The notes under the pieces were generated by a model. That model did no database searches, was not told the DNA's origin, and saw only the letters and a program-made list of their open reading frames with translations. Of a stretch of DNA of 58,522 nt, positions 10,316 through 30,470 are shown piece by piece (positions within the stretch are counted from its first letter, which is position 1; every line of letters starts with the position of its first letter). A program made the translations under genes and the position numbers. Origin of the DNA: Candidatus Melainabacteria bacterium (GTDB lineage Bacteria > Cyanobacteriota > Vampirovibrionia > 2-02-FULL-35-15); assembly GCA_016193285.1 (NCBI GenBank), contig JACPSL010000025.1:1-58522 (forward strand). The letters run 5' to 3'.

Positions 10316-10626
10316 TTAGTAGCCAGAAGGAGGAACAAATACAGGCTCCGGAGGTGGAACAAATACAGGAGGTGGAACAAATACAGGCTCCGGAGGTGGA
10401 ACAAATACAGGAGGTGGTGCCTCTGGAGGAGGAGCAACATATCCACCTGGAGGTGGTGTACCACCAGTTGGTGGTGGCATTCCGCCTGTTGTAGCACCTT
10501 CAGTGAATCCGCCTGGTGGTGGCATTCCGCCTGTTGTTGTTGTACCTCCAGTGAATCCGCCTGGTGGTGGCATTCCGCCTGTTGTTGTTGTACCTCCAGT
10601 GAATCCGCCTGGTGGTGGCATTCCGC
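10316..10626 (-). pseudogene. Displaced C-terminal tail of the Pro/Gly-rich surface protein
   Basis: Past the 7-bp duplication at about 10626-10632 the original reading frame of the large gene is continued here: two further copies of the GMPPPGGFTGGTTTTG repeat. After those comes a proline-rich tail of 'PPPVFVPPPEPVFVPP' units ending in SGY and a stop. Without the extra 7 bases the whole gene (10316-13085) would read as one 920-codon frame. The tail looks like a cell-wall or envelope spanning segment. As sequenced it is not translated in frame. Confidence 0.7.
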
Positions 10627-13085
10627 ATTCCGCCTGTTGTTGTTGTACCTCCAGTGAATCCGCCTGGTGGTGGCATTCCGCCTGTTGTTGTTGTACCTCC
10701 AGTGAATCCGCCTGGTGGTGGCATTCCGCCTGTTGTTGTACCTTCAGTGAATCCACCTGGACCACTTGTGCCACCTGCTGTTGTACCCATACCAGAAAAT
10801 GGACTACCATTAGATCCACCAGTAAATATTCCAAAATCAAACCCACCAGGGAATGCCCCATCTGTTGCGCCGCCACCAGGGAATGTTCCACCTGTTGCGC
10901 CGCCACCAGGGAATCCGCTTGATGGGCCACCTGTAGAAGTTGGTGGTGTAAATGAACCTATTACATCTCCTAACCCAACTGTTGCAGGACTAGCTGTAAA
11001 CTGACCAGTGTCAAACGATGCCATTGCTAAGTCAAATATTCCTTGTGGAAGAAATGAAGGTGGACCTTGCATGCCACCACCTGATGAAGGAGTTCCTTGA
11101 TTAAATGCACCAGCAAGATACACTGCTGCTCCTTCGAAATATTGCGTGGCATTACTTCCAAGACTGCTAAATGCATCAGCCAATTTACTTGCATGTTGCA
11201 TAGGATCAAAAAATTGTATAGAGCCGGTTGGTGGGGGTAATGTATCTCCTTGCCTACCAGTATTTAAGGCAAATACATTTCCTTGAACTTGCTCAATACC
11301 CATTGAACCAAAAATTCCAAAGCTTCCTTGATTAAAGTTTTGAGCAATTGTTGGTGGCATAAAAGATGCTGTGAACTCTCCATTTTGCCCTTCAGTAGGA
11401 GGCACAAAGCCAGATGGATACTGGAATTGCCTATCACTCGATTGAAGCTGTGCTGTACCTGCAATATTAGGAGGCATAAAGGCACCAGGATATGCAAAAA
11501 GCTCGAATCCTTCTTGTGATTCAAAATCTCCTTCTAGAAAACTACCAGGAGCTGCTTCAAAAGTAAAAGCTTGCCCTTGAAATGCAAGTCCCATTGCTTG
11601 TTCTGCTAGTCCTGTAAGATTTGCTTGTATACCTGGAGGAATAGGAATCTTGTTGAATTGTGATGCATTAAATGTTCCTAGCTCTCCTTGTTTTGCAAGA
11701 TTTACTAACTCACCAAAATTTTGTAATGCTTCTTGTCTAAAAACTGCTGGTGGAAAGCTCCCGCTTTTCAATGCTGCTACTAGAGTTTCTTCACTTGTAG
11801 CTTCTATAGAACCAGGTATAACACCAGCTTCTATATAAGCCAAAGCTTGAATCTCTGGAGGAGGAGGAGGAACACCCTCTCCTAATTCTCCTTCGTTAAA
11901 AAATCCAGTCGCATAAGTATTAAAAGGAATATTACTTATTCCTTGTTCCGCAATTTGAGTTGGATCTTCTCCAACTATTTCAGGTGCTTTCCATGCAACT
12001 TCTGATGCAATTTCTGCGATTTGTTCAGGATTATTTAGGACAGATGCAAGATCATCAACTATTCCTCCATATATTTCAGTTGAATGTACTGCACATGCAG
12101 TTTCTACTGATTGTAAGGCTTCGTCAACAGTTTCTGCATTTTCAGTTGCTGGTTCTACTTGTGCAACAATTGTATCGTATGTATCTTGAAGAGGTATCTC
12201 AGCCTTTGGTGCTGCATCTTCAAGTTCACCAACTGTTGCAGTAGCAATATTTACTGCTGCAGTTGTTGCAGCATCCACTACATTATTAATTACATTGTTT
12301 GCAGTTGCATCTTCAGTAAATGCAATTGCTGATAATGTAACTTCTTCTGTTCCAGTAGAAGTTGGAGCTTCGATCTGTGCCTTTATTACTGGATTTTCAA
12401 CTTCTTCTGCAACACTATCAGGTATTTCAGATATAAGTTGATAATAAAGAACAGGATTACCATTTTCATCTAGTGCTTCTGTTCCAGGAACCTCTACTGT
12501 TGCAACATCCTCTATTGGCTCATGATTTATGTCATACAATGCAACTTCAGCATCAGGTATTTCACTAGCTGTTGTTTCTTCTGTTATTGGCTCTCCACTT
12601 GCAACAGCTTCTTGATGTCTTAAAATCCTTGCCTTTACTTCACCAGTTGTATCTGGAATAGGAACTTTTGCTCTTCCTATTATTAAGGTAGGTGGGTTTA
12701 ATACTACTTGACCTTTTAATTTTTTCTTTCCACTTGTTGCAGTAATTTGATAAGTACCTTTTGGAAGTAAGTTAGCTGGGCCAAGAGTACTTAAGTCAAT
12801 TTCAAGGGCACCATCATCATTTAATGTTCCTTGTATTTTAATTGGCTTACCATTTCGTAATGTTTTTGGAGCAGGCTTAATTGTAATTGTGTTACTAAGT
12901 CTGCTTGCATTTAAAATATGTAACTTATTCTTGGATGGATCAATAACACTTAAGTCCATTGTTGATTTTTCAAGTGTTAGTGTTGTAGATCTTGCACCAG
13001 CATAAGCTACTTGGAAATTTTGTCCGGTTAACAAAACTGAAAACAAAATTGATAAAAATATACGAATGCGTTTATTCTTTAACAT
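10500..13085 (-). CDS. Large exported Pro/Gly-rich repeat protein (frameshifted near its C-terminus)
   Basis: The 861-aa frame begins with a signal peptide (MLKNKRIRIFLSILFSVLL to AYA), and a strong AGAGGTGA ribosome site precedes the ATG. Residues 31-160 are beta-rich ('GKPIKIQGTLNDDGALEIDLS'). The next 300 are Ala/Glu/Val-rich with an acidic bias. The region from about 480 is Gly/Pro/Phe-rich with 'PGGFxGG' motifs, ending in 16-residue repeats of the type GMPPPGGFTGGTTTTG. After two full repeats the frame shifts: a 7-bp tandem duplication sends translation into an Arg/Asn-rich ending (NATTRRIHWRYNNN) that is a frame artefact. It is likely a secreted or surface structural protein. I recognise no known family. 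Confidence 0.72.
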   Translation of the reverse strand: MLKNKRIRIFLSILFSVLLTGQNFQVAYAGARSTTLTLEKSTMDLSVIDPSKNKLHILNASRLSNTITIKPAPKTLRNGKPIKIQGTLNDDGALEIDLSTLGPANLLPKGTYQITATSGKKKLKGQVVLNPPTLIIGRAKVPIPDTTGEVKARILRHQEAVASGEPITEETTASEIPDAEVALYDINHEPIEDVATVEVPGTEALDENGNPVLYYQLISEIPDSVAEEVENPVIKAQIEAPTSTGTEEVTLSAIAFTEDATANNVINNVVDAATTAAVNIATATVGELEDAAPKAEIPLQDTYDTIVAQVEPATENAETVDEALQSVETACAVHSTEIYGGIVDDLASVLNNPEQIAEIASEVAWKAPEIVGEDPTQIAEQGISNIPFNTYATGFFNEGELGEGVPPPPPEIQALAYIEAGVIPGSIEATSEETLVAALKSGSFPPAVFRQEALQNFGELVNLAKQGELGTFNASQFNKIPIPPGIQANLTGLAEQAMGLAFQGQAFTFEAAPGSFLEGDFESQEGFELFAYPGAFMPPNIAGTAQLQSSDRQFQYPSGFVPPTEGQNGEFTASFMPPTIAQNFNQGSFGIFGSMGIEQVQGNVFALNTGRQGDTLPPPTGSIQFFDPMQHASKLADAFSSLGSNATQYFEGAAVYLAGAFNQGTPSSGGGMQGPPSFLPQGIFDLAMASFDTGQFTASPATVGLGDVIGSFTPPTSTGGPSSGFPGGGATGGTFPGGGATDGAFPGGFDFGIFTGGSNGSPFSGMGTTAGGTSGPGGFTEGTTTGGMPPPGGFTGGTTTTGGMPPPGGFTGGTTTTGGMRNATTRRIHWRYNNNRRNATTRRIHWRYNNNRRNATTRRIH
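10515..10766 (-). repeat. 48-bp tandem repeats with one 55-bp unit
   Basis: Five near-identical units start at 10515, 10563, 10611, 10666 and 10714. Four spacings are 48, 48, 55 and 48 bases; the odd one contains ATTCCGC twice in a row. A degenerate unit flanks the array near 10470. Each 48-bp unit encodes 16 residues (GMPPPGGFTGGTTTTG), so the array is coding, and only the 55-bp unit breaks the frame. Confidence 0.92.
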
Positions 13086-13538
13086 ATTTCACCTCTTAAG
13101 ATTTTTTAACCCAAAGAAAATATTCGATACAGTGACTAAAGTTCCCTGAAGTAGAATTTTTGGACCATAGCTTGCCCTAGATTTTTATAAAATTTTCGAT
13201 TAGCATTTTTTTGTTGAATTGTTAAAAATTCACGGATTTAGATGTTTTTGAGGGTTTACCAGGGGTTAATTTTTAATTTTTGTTAGTGCTGCCACTTGCT
13301 TGTAGATAAAGAAAGAGCTTCAAGTAGGACAGCTCCTAAGATTTAAATTAATAAAAATGTTGAATTTTTCACTGATAAGAAAAATTTAATAAAAGATTTT
13401 ATTTTTTCATTACTTTCTATTAACCATTGACAGGCTTAATGTAGCTCATACAGCAAGTAAGGAAAATAACTTATTTGCAAAAAAAAAGTGGAGAGCTAGC
13501 AAAGCTAGACACTACAAAAATAAGGAGGCAAGAAAACC
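13086..13538. other. 453-base divergent intergenic region
   Basis: This is the control region between the Pro/Gly-rich gene (minus) and the small-protein cluster (plus). It is AT-rich and has no frame I can support. On the plus strand TTGACA at 13427-13432 is followed 16 bases later by TACAGC, a weak -10. A strong Shine-Dalgarno (AAGGAGG) lies at about 13521-13527 before the ATG at 13539. No tRNA or known RNA element is recognised. Confidence 0.5.
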
Positions 13539-13910
13539 ATGAGTACAATACCAAGACCATTACCAACAGGATCAAATACCAGTGAAAATCCAACACAACG
13601 TTTATCTGAAATCAGAAGTAAGATTTTCTCTGCAGAAACGAGATTGCAAGATTTAGAAGCACTTTACTCAGCAACTCTCTTGGAGCAACCATTACTACCG
13701 GGCAACGGAGTTACTATAGATGGTGAAGATTGGTTCGGTGTCGCCATCAGGATAGGTGTTGGCAACGATCTAAATAGAGTCAGAGATGAATTGGGCAAAA
13801 CACAAGAATATCTAGGCATCTTAAGAACTCAAGAAAACTTGTGGGTCACCGCATTATCAGAAAACAAGAAACTAGAAAAAGAAACTCAAAAAGCTGTAGA
13901 AAAAGCATAA
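13539..13910 (+). CDS. Small helical protein of unknown function (123 aa)
   Basis: I do not recognise this protein. It has no signal peptide, a Ser/Thr/Pro-rich first 18 residues, a helix-forming segment (RLSEIRSKIFSAETRLQDLEAL), a short loop containing 'GEDWFGVAIRIG', and a long C-terminal charged helix. Its C-terminal 'QENLWVTALSENKKLEKE' resembles 'REEFWMTVLKGEKDSMKK' in the next gene, suggesting that the two are distantly related. A consensus ribosome site (AAGGAGG) is present and a strong terminator follows, so it is a single-gene transcript. Small helical proteins of this kind include secreted substrates, but nothing here proves export. Confidence 0.7.
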   Translation: MSTIPRPLPTGSNTSENPTQRLSEIRSKIFSAETRLQDLEALYSATLLEQPLLPGNGVTIDGEDWFGVAIRIGVGNDLNRVRDELGKTQEYLGILRTQENLWVTALSENKKLEKETQKAVEKA

Positions 13911-13936
13911 ATAATATTTCACCAGCTTGTAAAAAG

Positions 13937-13980
13937 AAAACTGCACATACTTTCAAAGGTATGTGCAGTTTTTTGTTTTG
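13937..13980 (+). terminator. Strong rho-independent terminator
   Basis: AAAACTGCACATAC (13937-13950) pairs perfectly with GTATGTGCAGTTTT (13959-13972) around an 8-base loop and is followed by TTGTTTTG. It ends the 123-aa gene's transcript 26 bases after the stop. Confidence 0.9.
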
Positions 13981-14065
13981 CATAAGGAGAAAAATAGTAA
14001 GTTCATCTTTTATAAATTTTATTTTTTATAACTTTCTTTTAACAATCATATGAGTTAATACTATT

Positions 14066-14083
14066 GTTCGTTATACAACGAAC
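14066..14083. promoter_or_regulatory. Inverted repeat GTTCGTT-ATAC-AACGAAC upstream of the 89-aa gene
   Basis: Seven-base arms are separated by 4 bases, 37 bases upstream of the ATG at 14120. The arms are GC-richer than their surroundings. The size and symmetry fit a dimeric repressor or activator operator; no cognate regulator is identified. Confidence 0.45.
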
Positions 14084-14119
14084 GTGAGAAATCTTTAGAG
14101 TTAAGTGGAGGATAAATAT

Positions 14120-14389
14120 ATGGCTACTACAATAAGTTATATAAACCCAGTAGCAGAAGTTGCAAGTGCACAAGAGGGTATTTCACAAGCATTCCAAGAT
14201 AACAGTTTTGCTGAACAATTAAGCCGGTTAGCAATTATGGGTTATGGCGATCCAAACGTAGCAAGACATTTACTAGGAATTGCAAGATCAATGGTTGGGA
14301 ATGAATACCAACGAGAAGAATTCTGGATGACTGTACTTAAAGGGGAAAAAGACAGCATGAAAAAAGGCTGGGAATTAATGAAAGATTAG
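14120..14389 (+). CDS. Small helical protein of unknown function (89 aa)
   Basis: The family is unrecognised. The start is placed at the ATG at 14120 because GTGGAGG at 14105-14111 is the ribosome site, 8 bases upstream, rather than a GTG start. The protein is mostly helical, with 'QAFQDNSFAEQLSRLAIMGYGDPNVARHLLGIARSM' followed by 'YQREEFWMTVLKGEKDSMKKGWELM'. The latter segment resembles the end of the neighbouring 123-aa protein (W, T, L and the Lys-rich helix align). It has no signal peptide and no cysteine. It is followed after 11 bases by the glycine-zipper gene, so the two form a bicistronic unit separate from the upstream terminated gene. Confidence 0.68.
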   Translation: MATTISYINPVAEVASAQEGISQAFQDNSFAEQLSRLAIMGYGDPNVARHLLGIARSMVGNEYQREEFWMTVLKGEKDSMKKGWELMKD

Positions 14390-14400
14390 GAGTACTAAAG

Positions 14401-14862
14401 ATGTATATTGCAAATCCAATAAATCTTACAGCAATGTATGTAGAGAATGACTCTAACAGAAATATGCACAGAGGTTTGCTTAATGCAAATTTTCAAGACT
14501 ATATGGATTCATTAAAACAAGGCGGCCAGCTTCAAACGAGTGCAGGGAGATTAAGACAAAAAGTCTCTGCTCTAGCATCAAGTCTTGGACTAGCAGCTGG
14601 AGTATTTGGCGGACCTATGGGGTTGTCATTAGGTTACGCGGTAGGAAATGCTGTAGGTAAATATGTAGGCAACGTACTAAGCAATAGGATTTATGGCCAA
14701 GCAATGGCAGATATGAATGATATTGCTCATGAAGCAAGAGTCAGACATACTCAGTTAGCAGCTTCTGTAGCTTTTATAGATCAAATTGATGGTGCACTTG
14801 ATACCTTACGTCAAAATGAAAATAAACGTAAGAAAGATGATCTGGGAGCAATGTCAGTCTAA
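14401..14862 (+). CDS. Small protein with glycine-zipper membrane segment (153 aa)
   Basis: No known family is recognised. The N-terminal 50 residues are polar. Residues of about 55-100 (ASSLGLAAGVFGGPMGLSLG, then YAVGNAVGKYVGN) form a glycine-zipper-like hydrophobic stretch, common in proteins that insert in or cross membranes. A charged helix follows to the C-terminus (RQNENKRKKDD). A TAGGAG ribosome site precedes the ATG. Tight coupling with the 89-aa gene suggests that they act together; a membrane partner or pore-like role is possible but unproven. Confidence 0.68.
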   Translation: MYIANPINLTAMYVENDSNRNMHRGLLNANFQDYMDSLKQGGQLQTSAGRLRQKVSALASSLGLAAGVFGGPMGLSLGYAVGNAVGKYVGNVLSNRIYGQAMADMNDIAHEARVRHTQLAASVAFIDQIDGALDTLRQNENKRKKDDLGAMSV

Positions 14863-15277: not shown

Positions 15278-15463
15278 GTGATTTCCATTTCCAGAAAAGT
15301 AGTAGAAGAATTTTATGAAAAAGAATGGCAAGAAATGATTTCAGAAGCTTGTCGTAAATTTCTAATTGAACTTACATGTAAAGAATATCGTTTAAATGAA
15401 ATGCCAAAACTTTCTTTTACAAAAGAAAAAGAATTAAGACCAAATGCTTTAGGTAAAATTTAA
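15278..15463 (+). CDS. Possible small protein, GTG start (61 aa)
   Basis: A 61-codon frame begins with GTG 15 bases after the 84-aa gene and ends 40 bases before the sigma/PstS fusion. The composition is protein-like (EEFYEKEWQEMISEACRKF, then a basic tail) and predicts one amphipathic helix. There is no clear ribosome site, and no family is recognised. It may be translated through coupling with the upstream gene. Confidence 0.45.
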   Translation: MISISRKVVEEFYEKEWQEMISEACRKFLIELTCKEYRLNEMPKLSFTKEKELRPNALGKI

Positions 15464-15503: not shown

Positions 15504-16898
15504 ATGAATGATGTCAGGCCTTTTGATGTGTTAAATGAAAAAGCTTTAGAGATTATTTTAAACTTTAAAGAAGATAGAAATAGCAAAAAGCTTGACAAAA
15601 CCTTACAAGCTGAGCTATTAAAATTAAAAGATGATATAAAAAAGATAATTACCTTACTTCCAAAAGAAGAACAAGATATTTTGGATTTAAGGTTTTTTCA
15701 AAATTTGTCAGTTGACGAGATTGCTAAAAAGATTGACAAACCAAGAGATGAAGTGTCAAAAAATCTTTTAGAAGGAATAAACTCAATTAAAGAAAATCTT
15801 AAAACAAGTGTGTCTACCATGAACAAAAGTCAAAGTGTTAAAGATATAGCTAAAACCATTACGGTTAAAAATAAAAACATCGTCTTTCCACCAAAACCCA
15901 AGGTACTAAGAAGATCTTCTTTTACAGCTAGTTTATTTAGCTTGTTATTTTGGCTTATAATTTTTTGTAGTTTTTACTTTTTAACACAAAAATATTTTTT
16001 ACTTAAGTTGCCTACTATAAATCAAATATATGGCAATGTAAGCAATGTTGTAAGTAGCTTAAAGATAAATGAAAAATCAGATAAGGTAAAGCCAAGTAAG
16101 GGTTATATAAAAATCTCTGGCTCATCAAGTTTACTTCCATTATCACAAAGGTGGAAGAACTCTTTTAGTACTGAATATCCACAATACAACGTCAAATTAG
16201 TTGCTTCAGATTCTGATCAAGGAATAAAAAATTTAATTGACAGCAAAGTAGATATAGCAAATTCAAGTAGACCTATATCATTCCTAGAAAAGAAAAAAGC
16301 AGCTGAGAAAGGGTTGGAACTAATAGAAGAGAGGGTAGCTCTTGATGCACTTATTATTATTGTAAATAAGAAGAATTCTCTTAATGAAATTAGTTTAGAT
16401 GGTTTAGAAGGAATATTTAGCAATAAAATTAAAAACTGGCAAGAGTTAGTTTCTTATAACAAACCAGTTATAGTAGTCATTAGAGAAGAAGGAAGTGGGA
16501 CTAATGAATTTGTTAAAGACAGAATTTTACAAGGGACAAAATTTCCTTCTTTATTTTTACGATTAAAATCTAATCAAGAAATAATAAAATTTGTATCTGA
16601 GAATGAAGCTGCTATTAGCTTTGTAAACTCTACTAATTATCCATGGGAAAATAATAATATTAAATTTCTTAAAGTAAACAATTATGATAATTCTCTTAGT
16701 GTTTCACCATTTGATAATAAAAAGTTAGATGAACAAGCAATTAGATATGGTGATTATCCACTTGCACATTATTTGTATTTAGTTGTACAAACTAATGCTT
16801 CTCGTAAAGTAAAAGATTTTACTGAGTGGGTACTTGAGCCAAAAGGACAAGAAGTTGTTGAACACTCAGGCTTACTACCTGTAGTTACTGAAGACTAA
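15504..16898 (+). CDS. Sigma-region-4 HTH / transmembrane / PstS-like phosphate-binding fusion
   Basis: The 464-aa product joins three parts. Residues of about 50-98 (LLPKEEQDILDLRFFQNLSV, DEIAKKI, EVSKNLLEGINSIKENL) match sigma-70 region 4, the -35-binding helix-turn-helix. Residues 141-165 form one membrane helix (SLFSLLFWLIIFCSFYFL). Residues 200-464 match periplasmic phosphate-binding proteins of the PstS family: 'ISGSSSLLPLSQRW', 'DSDQGIKNL', 'DIANSSRPIS' and 'REEGSGTNEFV', the last being the phosphate-loop signature. The topology predicts a cytoplasmic DNA-binding end and an external phosphate-sensing end in one chain. No sigma region 2 is visible, so it is not a complete sigma factor. 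The nearest regulatory site upstream is the Pho-box-like repeat. Confidence 0.8.
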   Translation: MNDVRPFDVLNEKALEIILNFKEDRNSKKLDKTLQAELLKLKDDIKKIITLLPKEEQDILDLRFFQNLSVDEIAKKIDKPRDEVSKNLLEGINSIKENLKTSVSTMNKSQSVKDIAKTITVKNKNIVFPPKPKVLRRSSFTASLFSLLFWLIIFCSFYFLTQKYFLLKLPTINQIYGNVSNVVSSLKINEKSDKVKPSKGYIKISGSSSLLPLSQRWKNSFSTEYPQYNVKLVASDSDQGIKNLIDSKVDIANSSRPISFLEKKKAAEKGLELIEERVALDALIIIVNKKNSLNEISLDGLEGIFSNKIKNWQELVSYNKPVIVVIREEGSGTNEFVKDRILQGTKFPSLFLRLKSNQEIIKFVSENEAAISFVNSTNYPWENNNIKFLKVNNYDNSLSVSPFDNKKLDEQAIRYGDYPLAHYLYLVVQTNASRKVKDFTEWVLEPKGQEVVEHSGLLPVVTED

Positions 16899-16903
16899 AA
16901 AAG

Positions 16904-17290
16904 ATGAATTACCAACTTAATGAAAATATAAAGCCTTTTGAAATAGAAATAGATAAATACAGGCCGTATTATTATGCAGGTGCTTCAGGTGATTTTAATC
17001 CTATTCACATAGACAATGACTTTGCAAAGATGGCTGGTCTTGGTGGAATTATTTTACAAGGCTTATGTACGATGGCATATGTATACCGCTCCGCGATAGA
17101 TAATAAAGATCCAGGTAAAATAAAAAAAATTAAAGTAAGGTTTAGAAACATGGTTAGACCACTTGATAAATTAACTATAAAAGGAAAGGTTTCAAAGGTT
17201 GAAAATAGTTTAGCTACTGTTGAACTATTAGCAGAAAACCAAAAAGGTGAACAAGTTATCACCAATGCTTTTGCAGTACTATCCTTTTAA
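16904..17290 (+). CDS. MaoC-like (R)-hydroxyacyl dehydratase, HadB type
   Basis: This 128-aa hot-dog-fold protein carries the hydratase 2 motif in 'YYYAGASGDFNPIHIDNDFAKMAGLGGIILQGLCTMAY', with the catalytic Asp and His in GDFNPIH. That single-domain form corresponds to the catalytic half of split (3R)-hydroxyacyl-ACP dehydratases such as mycobacterial HadB. The complementary non-catalytic half appears at 19752-20189. The start lies 5 bases after the PstS-fusion stop. Its 3' end overlaps the convergent RNase H gene by 12 bases. The likely role is fatty-acid elongation or a related lipid pathway; the exact substrate is unknown. Confidence 0.8.
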   Translation: MNYQLNENIKPFEIEIDKYRPYYYAGASGDFNPIHIDNDFAKMAGLGGIILQGLCTMAYVYRSAIDNKDPGKIKKIKVRFRNMVRPLDKLTIKGKVSKVENSLATVELLAENQKGEQVITNAFAVLSF

Positions 17291-26992: not shown

Positions 26993-29080
26993 GTGTATAG
27001 AAAAAATCTTATAAGTGAAGTTATAGTTGGTGGAGTAGTATTTGGATTACTCTTACTAATACTTGTTCCATTACCTCCTTGGCTAATGGATATTTCATTA
27101 GCTACTAATATTTCTTTTGCAATTGTTACTTTAGGTATTGCTTTGTATATTGCAAGGCCACTTGATTATGCTGTTTTACCATCAGTACTTTTAATTACAA
27201 CTTTATTACGTTTATCTTTAAACATTGCTGTTACAAGATTAATTTTGTCACAAGGCTATGCAGGAGAAGTTGTAAATGCTTTTGGACAATTCGTAGCAGG
27301 TGGAAACTTAGTAGTAGGTATCATTATCTTTATTATTATTACTGTTGTACAGTTTATTGTTGTTACTAAAGGTGCTGAAAGAATTGCTGAAGTATCAGCA
27401 AGATTTGCATTAGATGCAATGCCTGGAAAGCAAATGTCTATTGATGCAGATTTTAATGCAGGACTAATTACAAGTGATCAAGCAAGGCAACGAAGAGCAG
27501 ACTTAGAAAGAGAATCTTCATTTTATGGAGCAATGGATGGTGCAAGTAAGTTTATAAAAGGAGATGCAATTGCAGGTATTGTAATAACTATTGTAAATAT
27601 TACTGCAGGTTTAACTATTGGAGTTACACAAAGAGGTTTAGATCTTGCCCAAGCTGCAAATAAATATTCATTACTAACTGTTGGTGATGCACTATCTGCT
27701 CAAGTTCCTGCACTAATTTTATCTATTGCAGCTGGCCTTATTGTAACCAGATCTACATCAAGTGCTGAAAGTTTAGGACAAGATATTGGTACACAAATTA
27801 TGAACAGGCCAAATGCATTAGCACTTGCATCCGGACTTTTATTTTTAATTGGATTTTTACCAGGTTTGCCAACTCCTGCTTTTATAGTTCTCTCATTAAT
27901 CGTTGGCAGTATGGCTGCTTATGTTTTTACTCAAAGAGCACAAGCTCTAAAAGCAACAGAAGAACAAGCTGCATCTGAACCAAAAGTAAATCCAAGTAGT
28001 CCTGATATGATGTATTCATTATTAGAAGTAGACAATCTTGCTATTTGGGTTGGAAGAAATTTACTAGACATAGCAGACCCAGCCAGGCAGGGTACTCTTG
28101 TTCCTGAAATAGCCTCGCTTAGACACCAGCTAACTTTAAACCTTGGATATATTTTACCTTCAGTAAGAATTATGGATGCTCCAAGTTTAAGTCCAAACGA
28201 GTACAGGATTGTCATAAGAGATACAACTGTTGCTTCAAGTGAAGCTTATCCAGACAGGATGTTAGTGCTCAGGGAATATTGGGACAGGATTTATTCAGAA
28301 CCACCTCCAGGCGCACTTCCTGGATGGGATCCAGCATTACAAGAACCAGCTTACTGGATTGATCCAGACTATCTTGAACAAATTGACTGGCAGTTTCCAG
28401 CAACACCATCAGTAAGAGTAATAACTGCCCACCTGGCCGAAGTTACAAGAAGAAATATTGATGAGCTTTTAACTAAAGCAGACGTAAAGAAAATACTTGA
28501 GCAAGCAAAACAAAGAGATTCACAAATAGTAGATAGTTTAGTACCAAACTTAATTAGCCTTGGTGACTTAAGACGTGTTTTTGTAAACTTACTTAAAGAA
28601 AGAGTTTCAGTTAGAGATGTTCAATATATTTTAGAACGCTTAGAAGATTTATGTGTTGGAATTAAAGATCCTGATCTTTTGTCAGAAAAATTAAGAATTA
28701 CTTTAGGTAGACAAATTTGTCTTGAGTTTGCAACACCTGAAAAACAAATTTACTCAATGGCATTCCATCCAGCAACAGAACGTAAACTTGAAGAGTCATT
28801 GCAAAGAGTTGAAAATAATCTTGTCTTAATTTTAGATCCACTTCAAATTCAACAATTAGTTACAATGATTTCAAAAGCCTCTAAAAGAATTAACGAAAGA
28901 TATGGTAGAAAACCAGTTTTAATTTGTGGGCCTGGTTTAAGACTGCCATTATACAGATTGCTTGAACAGTTTGATCCACACATACATGTTTTGTCTTATG
29001 CAGAGCTTTCTCCTGACTTTAATGTTCAAGTATTAGAAACAATTGGTGCTGAAGCTCAACAGACAGCATCAGCCGCATAA
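26993..29080 (+). CDS. flhA: Flagellar/type III export gate protein FlhA
   Basis: The 695-aa product has about eight N-terminal membrane helices and the FHIPEP-family core 'SARFALDAMPGKQMSIDADFNAGLI', 'FYGAMDGASKFIKGDAIAG' and 'KYSLLTVGDALSAQVPALI'. A cytoplasmic domain of about 340 residues follows ('VPNLISLGDLRRVFVNLLKERVSVRD' and the ending 'VLSYAELSPDF'). It forms the nonameric gate of the flagellar export apparatus. The next gene encodes the export ATPase. Some stretches also resemble non-flagellar SctV; I favour FlhA because of the FliI-like neighbour. The start is a GTG at 26993 without a clear ribosome site. Confidence 0.88.
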   Translation: MYRKNLISEVIVGGVVFGLLLLILVPLPPWLMDISLATNISFAIVTLGIALYIARPLDYAVLPSVLLITTLLRLSLNIAVTRLILSQGYAGEVVNAFGQFVAGGNLVVGIIIFIIITVVQFIVVTKGAERIAEVSARFALDAMPGKQMSIDADFNAGLITSDQARQRRADLERESSFYGAMDGASKFIKGDAIAGIVITIVNITAGLTIGVTQRGLDLAQAANKYSLLTVGDALSAQVPALILSIAAGLIVTRSTSSAESLGQDIGTQIMNRPNALALASGLLFLIGFLPGLPTPAFIVLSLIVGSMAAYVFTQRAQALKATEEQAASEPKVNPSSPDMMYSLLEVDNLAIWVGRNLLDIADPARQGTLVPEIASLRHQLTLNLGYILPSVRIMDAPSLSPNEYRIVIRDTTVASSEAYPDRMLVLREYWDRIYSEPPPGALPGWDPALQEPAYWIDPDYLEQIDWQFPATPSVRVITAHLAEVTRRNIDELLTKADVKKILEQAKQRDSQIVDSLVPNLISLGDLRRVFVNLLKERVSVRDVQYILERLEDLCVGIKDPDLLSEKLRITLGRQICLEFATPEKQIYSMAFHPATERKLEESLQRVENNLVLILDPLQIQQLVTMISKASKRINERYGRKPVLICGPGLRLPLYRLLEQFDPHIHVLSYAELSPDFNVQVLETIGAEAQQTASAA

Positions 29081-29087
29081 GAACGAA

Positions 29088-29119
29088 ACGGCGAGACGGC
29101 GAGATAGCGAGACGGGGAT
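29088..29119 (+). repeat. 8-bp tandem repeat between flhA and fliI
   Basis: ACGGCGAG, ACGGCGAG, ATAGCGAG and ACGGGGAT in a row. The last unit, with GGGGATAGGA, also serves as the ribosome site of fliI. Confidence 0.75.
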
Positions 29120-29126
29120 AGGACTA

Positions 29127-30470
29127 ATGGATAATTTAGTTAATGAAAATTATATAAAAGATTTGAATCGAGAAGTTCAAGACTTGCTTAGTAAGAACGA
29201 GCTTCGTAAGTGGACTGGTTATGTAAATAAAGTAGTTGGTTTACTTTTAGAAGCAAAACTTCCTGGTGCAATGGTTGGAGAATTATGTCATGTGATTACG
29301 GATCGTGGTGAAATAAAAGCTAGTGAAGTTGTTGGCTTCAGAGGAGAAACTTCACTCTTACTTTTATTAGTTGATGGTGCTGGTGTGCATCAAGGAAGCA
29401 GAATAATTCAAACAGGCAGACCAATAGAAGTACTTGTTGGGGAAAGTTTACTTGGACGTGTAATTGATACTTTTGGGAAACCAATAGATGGTAAAGAATT
29501 AGATGGAACTTTAGTACCAAGAGCTTTAGATGCAAAGCCACCAGAAGCTTATGGCCGCCCAAGGATTGATACAGTTTTTGCTACAGGTATAAGAGCTATT
29601 GATGGACTTTTAACTCTTGGTGTTGGACAAAGAATTGGAATATTTTCTGGCTCAGGAGTTGGAAAAAGTACTACCTTAGGTATGATTGCAAGATATGGAG
29701 ATGCTGATGTTAATGTTATTGCACTAGTTGGTGAAAGAGGAAGAGAAGTTCAGGATTTTATTGAAGTAAGTTTAGGTGAAGAAGGTTTAAAAAAATCTGT
29801 TGTTGTTGTTGCTACATCAGATCAACCTGCAATGTTACGTGTTAAATGTCTTTCTACTGCAACTTCAATTGCAGAATATTTCAGGGATCAAGGGAAAAAT
29901 GTTCTTCTTATGGCAGACTCAGTTACAAGACTTGCAATGTCAGCAAGAGATGTTGGCCTTTCAGTCGGTGAACCACCAACTATGAAAGGTTATACACCTT
30001 CTGTTTTTGCAATGCTGCCAAAAATATTAGAAAGATCAGGCAGATCTAAGGCAGGAGCAATTACAGCAATTTATACAGTACTTGTTGAAGGAGATGATTT
30101 TAATGAACCAATTGCTGATGCAGTTCGTGGAATATTAGATGGTCATATTATTTTATCTAGAACAATTGCAGCTAGAAATCATTATCCTTCTATAGACATT
30201 TTAAACAGTGTAAGCAGGCTTTTCCCAGAGTTAGCTAATAAGGAACATCAAGAAGCTAGTGCATTTATACGTAACATGATGGCTACTTACAATAGTGCTG
30301 AAGATTTAGTTGCAATTGGTGCATATGAAAAAGGCTCAGATCCTAGAATTGATAAAGCTATTTTATTAAAACCTGTAATAGATTCATTTTTACAACAAGG
30401 CATATATGAAACCTCCGGTTTTGAAGAAACAATAAAATTACTAATCGACATTTATCAACAAGGAAAATAA
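29127..30470 (+). CDS. fliI: Flagellar export ATPase FliI
   Basis: The 447-aa product is an F1-beta-like ATPase: Walker A 'GIFSGSGVGKSTTLG', the family block 'NVIALVGERGREVQDFIEVSLG', 'VVVATSDQPAMLR', Walker B 'VLLMADSVTRLAM' and 'GEPPTMKGYTPSVFAMLPKILERSG'. FliI unfolds and delivers export substrates at the FlhA gate. The frame is open from 29043, but the ATG at 29127 has a proper GGGGATAGGA ribosome site and family-like length. The 46-base gap from flhA holds a tandem repeat. Other flagellar genes are not in the window. Confidence 0.88.
   Translation: MDNLVNENYIKDLNREVQDLLSKNELRKWTGYVNKVVGLLLEAKLPGAMVGELCHVITDRGEIKASEVVGFRGETSLLLLLVDGAGVHQGSRIIQTGRPIEVLVGESLLGRVIDTFGKPIDGKELDGTLVPRALDAKPPEAYGRPRIDTVFATGIRAIDGLLTLGVGQRIGIFSGSGVGKSTTLGMIARYGDADVNVIALVGERGREVQDFIEVSLGEEGLKKSVVVVATSDQPAMLRVKCLSTATSIAEYFRDQGKNVLLMADSVTRLAMSARDVGLSVGEPPTMKGYTPSVFAMLPKILERSGRSKAGAITAIYTVLVEGDDFNEPIADAVRGILDGHIILSRTIAARNHYPSIDILNSVSRLFPELANKEHQEASAFIRNMMATYNSAEDLVAIGAYEKGSDPRIDKAILLKPVIDSFLQQGIYETSGFEETIKLLIDIYQQGK

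Follow-up and report, generated by a model that had tools for sequence, protein, structure and literature searches.

A single-chain protein of Melainabacteria joining a sigma region-4-like domain, one membrane helix and a PstS-type domain: a possible phosphate receptor

Results

The fusion gene and its domains

We analysed a 58,522-nucleotide contig of a Candidatus Melainabacteria bacterium (assembly GCA_016193285.1, contig JACPSL010000025.1) and refer to this whole stretch as the window. One open, uninterrupted frame encodes a 464-aa protein in which a sigma-70 region-4-like helix-turn-helix (HTH), a membrane helix and a PstS-type domain follow one another. The features of the locus are as follows:

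13408–13441 and 14028–14061: 35-bp promoter-like element (direct repeat and -10-like box)
15278–15463, plus strand: 61-aa protein with no known function, encoded immediately ahead of the fusion gene in 11/11 family genomes
15504–16898, plus strand: HTH-TM-PstS fusion gene, 464 aa (frame, profile matches, relatives, AlphaFold2 model)
15639–15803, plus strand: sigma-70 region-4-like HTH, residues about 46–100 (Pfam Sigma70_r4, SigF/FliA/WhiG matches, model helices)
15924–15998, plus strand: predicted single membrane helix, residues 141–165 (hydropathy in 16/16 members scanned, model helix 140–165)
16098–16895, plus strand: PstS-type phosphate-binding domain, residues 199–464 (PBP_like_2, fold match, conserved contacts)
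16482–16502, plus strand: phosphate loop R327–T333 (REEGSGT), with R, G, S, G and T invariant in the family
16904–17290, plus strand: MaoC-like dehydratase, 6 bp downstream of the fusion gene

A first-pass annotation had described this gene as a 464-codon fusion of an HTH, a single helix and PstS, and the intact frame, Pfam matches, hydropathy and structural model confirmed it. The AlphaFold2 model (mean pLDDT 75.8) places HTH helices at residues 54–65, 70–77 and 81–106, the membrane helix at 140–165, and a two-lobed PBP fold behind it. When the model was compared with solved structures, the top matches were phosphate-binding proteins, with E down to 1e-22.

The HTH proposed at the N-terminus was borne out by Pfam. 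Sigma70_r4 matched residues 52–91 with 25.3 bits, above the cut-off of 24.1, and the score rose to 28.3 bits when the N-terminus was scanned alone. Only sigma region-4 profiles of Pfam and NCBIfam matched the N-terminus well, and the winged-helix profile Trans_reg_C of Pfam gave no match in the fusion. A profile built from the family matched region 4 of solved SigF/FliA/WhiG structures at the N-terminus (best E 3.1e-6). When 16 members were scanned with an E limit of 0.1, Sigma70_r4 was found in ten, these being the window-family members of the set. Within the genome, residues 11–99 have their closest BLAST relative in region 4 of a FliA/WhiG-type sigma factor of 261 aa, whose gene adjoins a FlhB/SctU gene on contig G000:C19. 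Since region 2 of sigma-70 had no match in the fusion with Pfam or NCBIfam, and only about 45 residues precede the HTH, the fusion is not a complete sigma factor.

The HTH core residues R63, F65, L68 and I73 are invariant in the alignment of the window's family. In an alignment with sigma-70 read by eye, an R/K-D/E pair stands at the positions of sigma R584/E585 in 7/10 members, and the equivalents of the DNA-contact arginines R586 and R588 are not kept. The recognition helix is also variable across members. With these arginines lost and the helix variable, recognition of the -35 element may be lost; DNA recognition by the inner domain is possible.

The fusion has one hydrophobic stretch (best 142–160), with more positive charge on its N-terminal side than after it. 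Hydropathy gave a single helix in 16/16 homologues, most of which also carry positive charge on the N-terminal side. There is no N-terminal secretion signal, and the membrane helix comes after an N-terminal domain of 140 residues. Hydropathy, charge and the model thus agree with the single membrane helix claimed earlier and predict that the N-terminus lies inside and the sensor outside.

The C-terminal part matched PBP_like_2 of Pfam at 196–445 (E 3.7e-39) and the PstS family TIGR02136 of NCBIfam at E 1.7e-49, with a score of 168.6 bits that lies under the curated cut-off of 206.6. The solved structures nearest to it by sequence are annotated as phosphate-binding proteins. The phosphate loop REEGSGTNEF spans residues 327–336. 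Contacts were mapped on what we take to be the E. coli PstS sequence, in which 9/9 residues checked carry the expected letter. In E. coli PstS the phosphate contacts are T10, F11, S38, D56, R135, S139, G140 and T141 (PMC10846223). All eight aligned positions are conserved in 10/10 full-length members of the family, where they read S/T, S, S, S, R, S, G and T. The Ser at the Asp56 position is shared with the ordinary PstS of two family genomes (G003 and G005). The position of E. coli D137 is not conserved and holds E, K, N, S or G. These findings suggest phosphate as the presumed ligand of the outer domain.

Distribution and selection

The fusion was found in 11/11 genomes of the window's family as the same single frame, in no case split into two genes. 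Those members of the family that carry names are MAGs of Candidatus Melainabacteria and Candidatus Caenarcanales, and isolate names point to groundwater as the source of several. The other ten fusions are 43–56% identical to the window protein, and the copy in G008 is broken by a contig end. Against genome contigs, a single-sequence query gave no match and an alignment query gave matches. A second Melainabacteria family (f4) carries an orthologue with the same domain order in 8/9 genomes, which aligns full length to the fusion profile (E 2e-47). No other full-length fusions were found among 289 genomes of the class, nor any in a 117-genome sample of the phylum.

In the f4 orthologues both the HTH and the pocket are degenerate. 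Sigma70_r4 gave no match there in a scan at E up to 0.1, and the phosphate loop reads SKQSGT or KTFEHGT, with the arginine replaced by Lys or Leu. As f4 keeps the architecture with the phosphate contacts lost, it would be unsafe to take phosphate as the ligand of every such fusion, and the ligand in f4 may differ from that of the window's family. In a separate f4 protein (L136), PBP_like_2 is joined to a second periplasmic-binding domain, Peripla_BP_6.

Between the closest pairs, dN was well below dS in the HTH and PBP parts alike, the ratios being approximate because silent sites are near saturation. Mean pairwise identity was 0.43 for the HTH versus 0.56 for the PBP domain. The linker and juxtamembrane stretches are poorly conserved, in contrast to the PBP domain and the core of the HTH. 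Judged by these sequences, the fusion is under purifying selection.

The sampled cyanobacteria have PBP_like_2 proteins that are anchored in the membrane without an HTH. Cyanobacteria also have fusions of PBP_like_2, with CHAT in L140 and with DUF4912 in L139.

pst and phoU genes elsewhere in the genome

As the first-pass annotation had stated, no pst or phoU gene lies beside the fusion; we found such genes elsewhere in the genome. pstC and pstA form a pair on a different contig, pstB is on a third and phoU on a fourth. In 7/9 family genomes that have the pstC/pstA pair, no pstS adjoins it. In each of these seven genomes we found one other PBP_like_2 protein, which is secreted and has the loop NDSSGNGT, where Asp replaces the Arg and Asn the Ser. 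Among the PBP_like_2 proteins found there, only the fusion has the phosphate-loop arginine and an intact site, which opens the way to a transport function. In the window genome, the secreted protein with this Asp/Asn loop lies at G000:C29:5900-7050 (L123); it is conserved in the family.

In G003 and G005 an ordinary pstS (loop RESGSGT) adjoins pstC, and the fusion is kept too. pstC was not detected in G001, a near-complete sister genome that carries the fusion; the fusion is thus not tied to the transporter alone. In the two f4 genomes tested, neither PhoU nor a PstC above the cut-off was found. With the PhoR profile, kinases matched everywhere below the cut-off, so that this profile does not discriminate.

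Gene neighbourhood and an upstream promoter-like element

The MaoC-like gene follows the fusion in the family genomes wherever the contig continues, and is probably a transcriptional neighbour with no known functional link. Gene order is kept over much of the compared region, unrelated housekeeping genes included; as it spans so many unrelated genes, adjacency to the fusion says little about function. In f4 the fusion has different neighbours.

Upstream of the fusion, the window encodes three small conserved proteins without a database family (13539–14862; 123, 94 and 153 aa), two of which exceed the fusion in conservation (80% and 74% mean column identity). Both the 13539 gene and the 14105 gene have a conserved 35-bp element upstream, CATWACYTTNNNTTAAC-N9-GNTTAATA, an 11-bp direct repeat with a -10-like box some ten bases downstream of it. 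The element is rare genome-wide according to a sequence-only model. Just past the -10-like box of the 14105 gene lies an inverted repeat, TTCGT-N5/6-ACGAA (14061–14085), which is conserved in the sister genomes with varying loop length and is perhaps a 5′ leader hairpin. A strong two-way terminator-like hairpin lies between the 13539 and 14105 genes (13935–13974). For the product of the 14401–14862 gene, the predicted structure is one long helix and uninformative. A terminator-like hairpin follows the counterpart of this gene in two sister genomes, so the fusion may be transcribed separately from the small upstream proteins; none was found after the gene in the window or in L034. Further upstream (10316–13085), the minus-strand frame 10500–13085 breaks within a GGMPPPGGFTGGTTTT repeat tract, along which an overlapping frame carries on; the break is possibly due to a frameshift in the repeat or an assembly error.

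In sister genomes the 35-bp element stands upstream of genes whose products are Ser/Asn-rich or coiled; inspected by eye, these proteins show no clear signal peptide, and they are possibly type III export substrates. FlhA/SctV-like and FliI/SctN-like proteins are encoded in the window at 26993–30470, and flagellin was not detectable in the window's family. A FliF-type ring protein is present in sister genomes and was not found in the window genome. Our results suggest that the element marks a type III export regulon, whose link to the fusion is proximity alone. A link of the element to the Pho regulon was rejected: a search with the element model found it absent from the pstC and phoU loci tested, which gives no support for control of pst.

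Discussion

Bacteria are known to sense phosphate by way of the Pst transporter and PhoU, together with a kinase and its regulator. The reading that our analysis supports best, to which we give about an even chance, is that the fusion is a bitopic membrane receptor, in which phosphate is bound outside and an inner domain derived from a FliA/WhiG-type region 4 acts on transcription. The PstS-type outer domain would bind phosphate, and phosphate would close its two lobes. Lobe closure would then change how the inner HTH associates or is positioned at the membrane, and thereby how it touches promoter DNA or RNA polymerase, with no kinase involved. From the domains and their predicted placement we infer binding to DNA or polymerase, signal transfer and controlled genes. 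The first-pass annotation had read the protein as a phosphate sensor, and this is partly supported: anatomy, predicted topology and contacts speak for it, and the checks that the annotation had named (an HTH profile match, conserved contacts, an unsplit fusion in relatives) came out in its favour, whereas a transport role competes with it or adds to it, given the pstC/pstA pair without pstS. Its regulatory part is consistent with our results and plausible.

The strongest competing explanation, which we still regard as rather unlikely, is that the fusion is mainly the membrane-anchored binding protein of a PstCAB lacking an ordinary pstS, with the HTH as an anchor or a side function. The seven of nine genomes without pstS beside pstC/pstA would fit this, as would the Asp and Asn that replace the loop Arg and Ser in the other PBP_like_2 protein there, the presence of pstB and phoU, the ordinary RESGSGT pstS kept next to pstC in G003 and G005, and the anchored PBP_like_2 proteins without an HTH in the sampled cyanobacteria. 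However, G003 and G005 have the ordinary pstS and the fusion together, G001 has the fusion with pstC undetected, and f4 has it as well, with neither pstC over the cut-off nor phoU in the two genomes tested. A mere anchor would also not need a conserved HTH core. It is unlikely, in our view, that the inner domain is a region-4 mimic that works by protein contact, either as a competitor for the flap of RNA polymerase or by binding an anti-sigma or the FliA-type sigma system encoded with FlhB/SctU. FlgM-type anti-sigmas do bind FliA region 4, the nearest in-genome relative is the region 4 of the FliA-type sigma factor next to FlhB/SctU, and the recognition-helix arginines are lost; yet most members keep the R/K-D/E pair at two contact positions.

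The outer domain could also serve another oxyanion or an organic phosphate instead of inorganic phosphate, still within a one-component receptor. D137 is not conserved, the f4 loops SKQSGT and KTFEHGT have lost the Arg, and PBP_like_2 serves many settings in the phylum, including the CHAT and DUF4912 fusions. Against this, the window's family has the full contact set and its nearest solved relatives are annotated as phosphate-binding proteins, and we consider a different ligand decidedly unlikely. That an assembly error or a frameshift joined two genes has a probability close to nil: the same stop-free frame occurs in 10 other assemblies with a shared gene neighbourhood, and its presence in 11 genomes excludes a chance or assembly fusion.

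A receptor acting on transcription is compatible with a second role of the fusion as an anchored binding protein for the genome's PstC/PstA. That it is in fact both, the phosphate-binding subunit of PstCA and a membrane-bound transcription regulator, and so collapses the PstS-PstB-PhoU-PhoR-PhoB chain, we regard as quite unlikely; if true, the receptor would read phosphate at the transporter and act on RNA polymerase via a borrowed sigma region 4. A single chain with the phosphate site outside and region 4 inside would be a shorter sensing route. It would mean that sigma region 4 can be put to use on its own as an output domain, and it would account for the retention of pstC and pstA in a lineage that has no pstS beside them. 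The protein, which is small and conserved, lends itself to direct testing. The literature searched held no description of a PstS-HTH or sigma4-PstS fusion, which is not proof of novelty.

Comparison with known systems

Membrane one-component regulators of the ToxR/CadC type (PMC5936718), as well as VtrA/VtrC, which control a type III secretion system (PMC9214523), resemble the fusion in having a cytoplasmic N-terminal HTH, one membrane helix and an outer C-terminal sensor, with no phosphorelay. The fusion differs from these regulators in that its HTH is a sigma region 4 and not a winged helix, and its sensor is a two-lobed binding protein of the PstS type. The closest sigma-based counterparts are ECF sigma factors with a fused membrane extension, such as SCO4117 (ECF52) and IutY (ECF243) (PMC8999054). 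The fusion shares with both a sigma-type domain and a membrane helix in one chain, and with SCO4117 also a ligand-binding domain outside in the same chain; however, those two are complete ECF sigma factors, whereas the fusion has no region 2 and no zinc-finger anti-sigma domain.

With PstS (TIGR02136; the C. perfringens PBP 4gd5/4q8r; Synechocystis Sll0540 9l8j) the fusion shares the fold and the contact residues. Unlike PstS, it has no secretion signal, is predicted to be anchored behind a 140-residue cytoplasmic domain, and has no adjoining pstCAB. Like the cyanobacterial PBP_like_2 proteins (L137, L140, L139), it uses the domain outside a plain transporter, and some of those proteins also have one N-terminal membrane helix, but neither they nor the CHAT/DUF4912 fusions carry an HTH. 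We file the fusion as a variant of the membrane one-component regulator design, and not as a member of the ToxR, sigma-factor or classical PstS groups.
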